This document shows positions 12,001-15,000 of a stretch of DNA of 64,000 bases, one piece after another (positions within the stretch are counted from its first letter, which is position 1; every line of letters starts with the position of its first letter). This stretch comes from Hypomesus transpacificus (taxonomy: Eukaryota; Chordata; Actinopteri; Osmeriformes; Osmeridae): positions 410,501 to 474,500 of the forward strand of contig NW_025813698.1 in NCBI RefSeq assembly GCF_021917145.1, in the 5' to 3' direction. Both the position numbers and the translations under genes were made by a program. The notes under the pieces are model-generated. The model was not told where the DNA came from and searched no databases. It saw only the letters and a list, made by a program, of their open reading frames with translations.

Positions 12001-15000
12001 ACAAGACCTACATCAGGTATTCAACCAAAAAGCTCCAACTCATTCTTCACAGACCTTGCTGTACTGTATTCGTCTCCACAAAAGAGGCCCTCTGTAGCAG
12101 CAGAGGGCAGGCTGCCCACCGCGCGCGCTGCGGCACCCAGAACCCCCGCCCCCGCCCGAGGCTCCTGCCCAGCAGCGCCCTGCAGCGCTAGCTAGCACTC
12201 CCACGCACGACGTGCCACAAGAACAGAGCTCAGGCCTGAGCACCCTGGCAGGCTTTGCGCTGCACAACCACAATCTTTTAAACGTCCTTAAGCCACCACG
12301 CTACACCCTGCTTGCTTCCTGACTGACAACAACTCTCAGGGTTTACTAAGTCGTCAGCTGTATCTGACTTATCAGACTACATTCTGGAACTTGTTGACTG
12401 TTGATGAGATACTGGAGTGGCACCTTAAAATGTGTGCACTCTTATAAAAATTGTCATTCATTTACAAATGTTGTCTCTGAATTTGAACACAGGTCAACAC
12501 GTTTTATTGACAGTAATATATTTGACAGTGTAACCTCTTTGAACAGGATCAGGCATGTCAAACGCGAAAAACAACTTCAGTTCATAGACAAGGCCAAATG
12601 TGCGTAGGCAGATACTTCCAAATTCAAAGAAAGCACTAAGTCCACTGAATCTAAGTATCAGGCATGGGCTTGCAAATGAGCACATTATCTCTCTTCAACG
12701 GTTACAACATTAACACTGACTCACGCCCTCAACCGCACATCAAATGCACATTTGCAACTTAACAGGAACACAATACTGCACGGCAAGCATCGCCAAACGC
12801 CGCCCGCAACAAAGACGCCCAGCTCTGTACGTGCATGCGCGTGACGGCGGCCGAGCGACTCCCCGCGTGCAGTGGGAGAGCGAGGGCCTACCCGAGGCTG
12901 CGGGAGCAGGGAGGGCCTACCTGAGGCCGCGGGAAGGGGAGGGCCTACCTGAGGCTGCGGGAGGGGGAGGGCCTACCTGAGGCCGCGGGAGCAGGGAGGG
13001 CCTACCTGAGGCCGCGGGAGGGGGAGGGCCTACCTGAGGCTGCGGGAGGGGGAGGGCCTACCTGAGGCTGCGGGAGGGGGAGGGCCTACCTGAGGCTGCG
13101 GGAGGGGGAGGGCCTACCTGAGGCTGCGGGAAGGGGAGGGCCTACCTGAGGCTGCGGGAGGGGGAGGGCCTACCTGAGGCTGCGGGAGGGGGAGGGCCTA
13201 CCTGAGGCTGCGGGAGGGGGAGGGCCTACCTGAGGCTGCGGGAGGGGGAGGGCCTACCTGAGGCTGCGGGAGGGGGAGGGCCTACCTGAGGCTGCGGGAG
13301 GGGGAGGGCCTACCTGAGGCTGCGGGAGGGGGAGGGCCTACCTGAGGCTGCGGGAGGGGGAGGGCCTACCTGAGGCTGCGGGAGGGGGAGGGCCTACCTG
13401 AGGCTGCGGGAGCGGGGACGCATGAGCGGCGAGGGTCGTCCATCCTCGTCAGTCACGCTCTCCGAGCTGCGAAAGTGTCTGAACAGGAAGTGGAGCTCGT
13501 CCTGCGTGGGCTGGTAGGGAAGCTGGTGCAGACGCTCCTGGGAGGAGGACGACGACTGCAAACAACAACAACAACAACATCATCAACATCATCAACATCA
13601 ACATCATCAACATCACCACCTGAAGCATAAAAGATTAAAAGCACCTTGTCAAATCCAATCTTATTTGACTGGCAGAACAAGAACGTTAGGTATTCAAATT
13701 ATGCTTTTTTATCACCATAAATGTAGGTAGTGTGCGTGTGTGTGTGTATCTTAATTAGAACGTGATAAGACTTTGGCGTCCGTTGAAATACGAAGAACAT
13801 TTTGTTTGTGACATGAAAAGGCTAGGACTTGCTGTTTCAGCAATCTGTTGAATTTTTGCGTGCCATGTGTCCTGAATAGCAACTCTATCGTCCAGGACGG
13901 CATCTGCGAGGGCCCTTTTTCTGCCCGCATATAAAAACAGAGTTGAAAAGGCCTATTGTCTTCTTATGACCTAGCTGCCTGTGCCTGGGTTCAGCTCATA
14001 AACTATCTCACAATAGAGGAACACATGGCGGCTTCTCACCACAGGCTGTTGGCCTATTACAAGACCATGAACCATCTTGCCTAATGACAGCATCTACAGT
14101 TTTAACCTCCACATTTTACTTCCCTGTTTGTCACCACATGATCTTTTAAGTGTGTGAATTATTTGTTAGTGTGTGAATTATTTGTTTGTTTGGAGTGCCC
14201 TTGAAGGTGAAGGACGCAGTTGGATGTAGGCCTATTGTAGTGATCTAGGAGTTTGGGTTGGTGGTGGACTGGGTGGACCTCTAGATGCGGTCAAATGCCA
14301 GACAAAGAAATAAAGAATATTCGCTGCAACAGCAAAGGCTAAGAAAGCGATTCAAAGCCGACGAGACATTCGGTAACATTTTCTCCAGTCATCGAAACAT
14401 GCTCTTTGAAGCATTAAATCGAATTACAAGCACAAACAGGGTAGCCACGTGAGGTCAAAATATCATCCCTTTGTTAACTACATGCATGCATTATGAGCTC
14501 CAAACTTTTCCTATTTCAGGCAGTAGCATGGTGACTCACTTTGGCACATCAAGGGAAACAATTGTGTTTCTCCCATTGGGTATCTTTTGTGTTTTATTGT
14601 TCTGTCAAATGTTGTTCATCTCTTGCTTGTCGTTCTTTATCTGTCAAGCTTTTGGTGAGGAGGACTTTAACGGTTCCACTGCATCGCGTTGATCAATGCA
14701 GTGAGAGTGGGTTGGAGGAGGGGGGGGGGGACTCACAGAGACAGTTGAGCTGGGAGGGTTAGTTCCATAGCCGGATGACGGGAGAGAGGCAAGCGACCAT
14801 CTTCGGCCTTCCGCTCTGGGAGAAAGAAAACGCACATGTGATTTACATAACCTCGAACCTTCCCATTTCCAAACTCCTTACATAACACATCACCAAAGTC
14901 CTTGCCCCCCCCCCCCCCCCCCCCCCAGCGGGAAGCACTGAAGTAACCAGTGTCCTTAAATATCCTTAATGTAAAAGGTATTCACAATGTTCAGTTAATG

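Follow-up and report, generated by a model that had tools for sequence, protein, structure and literature searches.

Work on how a cell chooses among identical splice donors has relied largely on designed constructs, and tandem duplication of exon sequence bearing AGGT has been put forward as a route of intron gain. Two human genes carrying repeats on a splice junction are the closest natural systems described. In CBS, the repeat c.1444_1467+7(16_21) lies at the exon 13/intron 13 boundary and comprises 16 to 21 copies of a 31-bp unit (PMC2630376; PMC1395315). Judging from this coordinate name, the donor is probably repeated in each unit. A review associates more copies with lower activity and terms the repeat non-coding at the boundary (PMC5188458), a label that conflicts with the coordinate name. 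In ABCA7, the intron 18 VNTR is built from a C-rich 25-bp unit beginning at the donor GT, of which the reference has 23.7 copies. Retention of a single unit amounts to 2 ± 1% over the tissues studied and does not vary with array length in cell lines, while longer arrays are accompanied by more skipping of the next exon and lower expression (PMC5954066). ABCA7 is thereby a measured natural case of choice among identical donors. Tandem repeats, likewise polymorphic, have also been reported in seabream GH introns (PMC3045353). Here we describe an array in a mast3 gene of Hypomesus transpacificus whose anatomy is known from human CBS and ABCA7, and whose setting is unusually rich.

The array was found in a 64-kb stretch of DNA, referred to throughout as the window, and occupies one exon-intron junction of mast3. 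The features at this junction are as follows, with a slash marking the donor:

13398..13555, minus strand: mast3 exon, the last 15 nt of which are the exonic part of unit 1
11595..13397, minus strand: intron of 1803 nt, phase 2, with its acceptor at 11595
11519..11594, minus strand: following mast3 exon (26 residues given), matched to Osmerus eperlanus mast3
12874..13418, minus strand: 28-bp minisatellite called by TRF, 19.4 copies (a value from one assembly), unit CTCCCGCAGCCTCAG/GTAGGCCCTCCCC
13396..13397, minus strand: native, exon-proximal donor GT, CAG/GTAGGC, in agreement with the protein P0121
12890..13369, minus strand: 18 further donors in the unit table, 17 reading CAG/GTAGG and the last CGG/GTAGG
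12898..13376, minus strand: CCCGCAG ends resembling acceptors, complete in 15 of the 18 intronic units

The exon (158 nt) encodes part of the DUF1908 region and ends in ...RSRSL plus AG, the phase-2 junction dividing a Ser codon (AG/T). Spliced to the next two exons, it matches Pfam DUF1908 (PF08926) over a single stretch (8.7e-71, profile positions 56-203), and the same three-exon piece is a partial match to solved MAST1 and KIAA0561 pieces. Of 5867 full-length relatives found, 120 were listed, and Osmerus eperlanus mast3 (P0121) ranks first among these, with 98% identity over the best aligned segment (66% of the stitched query), while the runners-up among the matches listed stand at ~90%. 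This protein could be matched exon by exon from ~23490 down to 2 in the window, and its RSRSLSPGR spans the junction. At the level of sequence comparison, PF08926 and P0121 confirm both the mast3 gene and the junction. RSRSL(S) had been described in the initial annotation as a conserved segment ahead of the kinase domain, which holds with the correction that the segment lies inside the DUF1908 domain preceding the kinase domain. Fibronectin-type receptor open frames at 26500-29700 on the plus strand are presumably il12rb1-like, and we take il12rb1 to adjoin MAST3 in human.

TRF gave the array a period of 28, a 96% match and a score of 993, the highest of the 23 rows for the window. The commonest unit combines the 15 terminal coding bases of the exon with the first 13 intronic bases, placing both coding bases and the donor of the adjoining exon inside the tandem unit and producing 19 donor positions, whose first intronic bases run from 13397 and 13369 onwards to 12891. 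The tandem array of 19 copies of an exon end reported in the initial annotation is therefore confirmed, with the extent 12874-13418 according to TRF, as are the 18 extra exact or near-exact donors opening the intron, 17 of which are identical to the native one. Two of its generalisations need trimming. A strong CCTCAG/GTAGG donor had been ascribed to every unit and is present at 18 of the 19, the last being CCTCGG/GTAGG; an acceptor-like tract ending in CCCGCAG had also been ascribed to each, and units 15, 16 and 18 instead have CCCGCGG. Splice sites were scored with matrices of consensus values, which are untrained and comparative only. On this scale 55 GT sites on the minus strand of the window equal or exceed the native donor, 18 of them being array donors including the native one, and no GT in the intron outside the array reaches the native score. 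The commonest form of the acceptor-like end scores 9.56 on the consensus weight matrix, compared with 8.36-10.39 for four real mast3 acceptors. The intact donor GT in 18/18 intronic copies, set beside the loss of the acceptor AG in three, could hint at constraint, few independent events being involved.

Fourteen of the 19 units are identical, including the ten nearest the exon (the exonic one among them), and the variant units (11, 15, 16, 18 and 19, of which 15 and 18 are 29 bp long) all fall within the distal nine, an arrangement with a chance probability, by our own arithmetic, of C(9,5)/C(19,5) = 0.011. The distal position of all variants suggests that the array has lately been growing at its exon end. 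A whole-genome search with the exon translation identified two places, the mast3 exon of the window and a paralogue at C10:13525559. The paralogous exon ends in CGCTCTCGCAGCCTCAG/GTAACTTT (donor CAG/GTAACT), the intron position is common to both genes, and no array is found at the corresponding junction of the paralogue. The same exon end without an array indicates that the exon end is old and the array derived from coding sequence, which supports the earlier suggestion that the array was seeded from coding sequence. Past the last unit the intron reads CCCTCGCTCTCCCACTGC, which by eye resembles the exon end, and this likeness of the distal flank may have given the first misalignment.

Read-through beyond 13397 produces CTC AGG TAG, an in-frame stop ahead of any later donor, as had been proposed for transcripts in which the first donor is skipped. 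Because this stop precedes every later donor, all 18 decoys yield the same truncation, and array length is unable to tune frame: the number of decoys changes and the protein does not. A frame shift with donor choice had been expected from the unit length (1 modulo 3) and is moot, since TAG is in frame for any later donor. Transcripts using a later donor have many exon junctions downstream and are predicted to be subject to nonsense-mediated decay.

We consider the array most probably to be a tolerated junction-spanning minisatellite of the CBS/ABCA7 kind, in which splicing goes through the exon-proximal donor and a little leaks to decay. A short tandem duplication would have taken in the exon end and its donor, perhaps helped by the likeness of the exon end CGCTCCCGCAG to the intron start CGCTCTCCCACTG, now located beyond the array. 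Amplification would then have proceeded by slippage or unequal exchange, latest on the exon side. Exon definition would pick the first donor and leave the intronic copies as weak decoys, whose occasional use would lead to the stop codon and predicted nonsense-mediated decay. The array would be tolerated because the exon-nearest copy still works, and the stop and predicted decay that follow from decoy use would imply a small, mostly length-independent loss of output. Relatives are consistent with this reading, as is the recurrence of junction arrays at other places in the genome. RSRS followed by at least 12 residues occurs in 147 proteins among the 240 matches listed, and continues as LSPGR in 139 and as LSSPIR in 5, the remaining three being read-through or odd (LRWFSI, LRWFVR and LSMICF). 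Together with RSRSLSPGR in O. eperlanus mast3, this indicates that relatives normally use the exon-proximal junction. By analogy with CBS and ABCA7, splicing should go almost entirely through the native donor, with a little leakage. The 18 decoys spread over ~500 nt, 17 of them the same as the native donor, could nevertheless compete more strongly than in ABCA7.

Further arrays at exon edges raise the possibility of a more general process. Two more are present in the window:

11049..11096, minus strand: 15-bp minisatellite, 3.2 copies, on the donor side, 6 nt from the exon ending ...LEKLHHE
8140..8320, minus strand: 44-bp minisatellite, 4.1 copies, on the acceptor side, ending 16 nt before the exon

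In the mast3 introns of the window, every high-identity minisatellite with a period of 14 or more and at least 3 copies (three in all) lies no more than 20 nt from an exon edge (0.31 expected, P 0.0007), and with low-complexity tracts included 5 of 7 intronic tandem arrays do so (P 0.0002); uniform placement is a simple null for this test and for that of the paralogue, as pyrimidine tracts are repetitive and arrays in short introns are necessarily near exons. The C10 mast3 paralogue (L031/L052/L053, C10:13524059-13545500; 21,442 bp) is 44% minisatellite in 23 non-overlapping arrays. Eleven of 20 arrays lie at most 20 nt from an exon edge, against 1.7 expected and with 0 of 20,000 placements reaching this number, in a test that left out two arrays of more than 900 bp and another lying within an exon, took a 37-bp call over a 31-bp call for one array, and used hand-set exon edges, several of them approximate near the 3' end. 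An excess of exon-edge arrays is thus seen in the two mast3 copies. Acceptor ladders are among them: one array of the paralogue has seven tandem copies of TTTCAG, the last copy being the real acceptor of exon RADGRRW, and another has 20 of CTCCAG, the last copy being the real acceptor of exon VCGTPEY. Seven upstream CTCCAG copies outscore that real acceptor (7.7 vs 5.4, consensus matrix), meaning that site strength alone would not select it. On the donor side, a 21-bp array of 23 copies starts 8 nt past the end of the YKERFPK exon. The paralogue also harbours an array of ~4 kb, and telomere-like GGTTAGGGTTA occurs in two units.

An excess of exon-edge arrays is suggested elsewhere in the genome. 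A third MAST gene (L074, C72:240200-242700) has a 30-bp array of 4 copies ~9 nt after its LQENLEKLLQD exon, and a second array, with a 13-bp unit and 2.9 copies, abuts the acceptor of an exon read as ATSQMEERL; the RSRSL exon was not found in the fetched C72 stretch, which makes this gene uninformative on the array junction. In an unrelated PDZ gene (L070, C270:780866-781591), a 48-bp array of 4.3 copies at 106-312 presents TTGCAG/GGACG three times ahead of the real acceptor, repeating the acceptor and about the first ten coding bases as a mirror image of the mast3 donor array. As a control, we fetched the flanks of 40 loci from 150 scored PDZ matches. No array (period at least 12, three copies, 75% match) was present within 30 nt of the matched stretch in any of 20 short PDZ exons mostly inside chromosomes, a set that includes a few contig-end loci, whereas 6 of 20 PDZ exons near contig ends or on small contigs had one (L055, L062, L063, L069, L070 and L073); the cut-offs were set post hoc, and distances run to the Pfam match rather than to proven exon edges. 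Four of these six arrays are low-complexity tracts, and L062 may not be a working exon, as the edge of its array has no visible GT donor. L050 has a tract 18 nt from the PDZ match that, at 70%, falls below the 75% threshold. The two sets (L032-L051 and L054-L073) suggest that minisatellites are denser towards contig ends. It is a tentative proposal, and one we would not favour at present, that minisatellites are preferentially born at splice junctions, chiefly in repeat-rich contig ends, and that the exon-proximal rung is always chosen from ladders of 19 donors or 20 acceptors that are mostly alike. If true, junction-born minisatellites would point to a mutational process linked to the edges of exons, and junction ladders would be natural test objects for choice among identical splice sites.

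A repeat family shared across the genome was considered and rejected: a 76-nt piece of the array had 11 matches in the genome, 10 of them within the mast3 array, in a search that skips simple repeats and very common words and so does not prove the unit unique. The eleventh (C10:8026443; 78% over ~70 bp) is a separate 30-bp array of 3.6 copies, at 4913-5021 of the stretch L009 (C10:8021500-8031400). This array starts no more than ~5 nt from the donor of an exon coding for coiled coil, and the letters of its unit are similar to those of the mast3 unit. From translated PDZ- and SAM-like stretches we take this C10 gene to be neurabin-like; its coiled-coil piece had nothing above the cut-off in Pfam/NCBIfam and no PDB match. 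A home-made exon prediction was set aside as too weak, having recovered, at the threshold applied, 12 of 24 known donors in its training gene. It called 78 exons in the sampled sequence and six array-to-edge matches, of which the window accounts for three, L009 for two and the 18 random chromosome samples for one (L012). Viral contigs were scanned for part of the unit and yielded nothing, and among the papers listed on repeats at splice junctions no genome-wide survey was recognised.

Regulation of mast3 by array length, in which a longer array would lower mast3 output or cause an adjacent exon to be skipped, whether by attracting proteins that bind C-rich RNA, by slowing transcription or by acting as a decoy for U1, appears unlikely. 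Precedents can be cited in its favour, namely lower expression and more exon 19 skipping with longer ABCA7 arrays (PMC5954066), lower enzyme activity reported with more CBS repeats (PMC5188458) and the polymorphism of the seabream GH intron minisatellites (PMC3045353). However, the C10 paralogue manages without an array at the corresponding junction, and neither structural property examined at the mast3 array lends support: RNA structure was rejected as its function, the array folding worse than all 100 shuffles (z +2.5), and the G-rich strand contains 0 canonical G-quadruplex motifs (four runs of at least 3 G, loops of 1-7). The more specific suggestion in the initial annotation of length tuning via competing donors is without support and is weakened by the low, length-independent retention of one unit described for ABCA7 (PMC5954066). 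A length effect on mast3 expression is possible, and an ABCA7-type effect on expression and next-exon skipping may also hold for the mast3 array.

It is very improbable that splicing steps recursively through the array or includes CCTCAG as 6-nt micro-exons, giving RSRSLSLSPGR. CCCGCAG does follow most donors by 22 nt and scores like real mast3 acceptors, AG/GT is found at all donors except the last (GG/GT), and a CCTCAG insert is in frame, adding Ser-Leu, such that the arithmetic of the 6-nt exon proposed in the initial annotation stands. Its use is another matter, since RSRSLSLS is absent from all 147 proteins with RSRS in the 240 matches listed, and steps between neighbours would leave introns of 22 nt; the tracts are moreover C-rich, not U-rich, and the acceptor is broken in 3 of 18. 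As zero-length recursive sites, the array copies contain AG/GT but do not stand out from the background, the best of them being equalled or outscored by 6 sites on the minus strand beyond the array and by 10 of the 230 on the plus strand (consensus matrix). Expansion or collapse of the repeat by the assembler is similarly far-fetched, for although high unit identity makes the copy number uncertain, non-repeat sequence borders the array at either end in a single contig of 785,992 bases, the variant units and the pair of 29-bp units serve as internal landmarks, and the genome has further exon-edge arrays.

The junction minisatellite at mast3 indicates that junction repeats of the CBS/ABCA7 kind also occur outside humans. 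The mast3 pair, whose independent ladders of donors and of acceptors sit at different exons, offers a natural series for testing exon definition, and also allows tests of the cost of decoy sites and of how far repeats beside exons are tolerated. Intron gain by tandem duplication is similar to the extent that mast3 has tandem copies of an exon piece with AG/GT, but these copies lie on the intron side and have made no new intron, the intron position being the same in the C10 paralogue. Seabream GH resembles mast3 in having intronic tandem repeats in a fish gene, and differs in that a splice donor within the repeat is not described in the passage on those introns (PMC3045353). In ABCA7, as in mast3, a C-rich array sits right on the exon and includes its donor, and a single retained unit disrupts the frame and results in a stop; the two differ in that the described ABCA7 unit starts at GT whereas the mast3 unit includes 15 coding bases (PMC5954066). 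ABCA7 arrays also reach many kilobases, with disease risk. The CBS repeat differs in being human and polymorphic, with a reported link to enzyme activity (PMC5188458). It is similar to mast3 in copy number (16-21 vs 19), the two being likened by their descriptions rather than by unit sequence, and in both the unit spans the junction, with 24 coding and 7 intronic nt in CBS, going by its coordinate name, and 15 and 13 in mast3.
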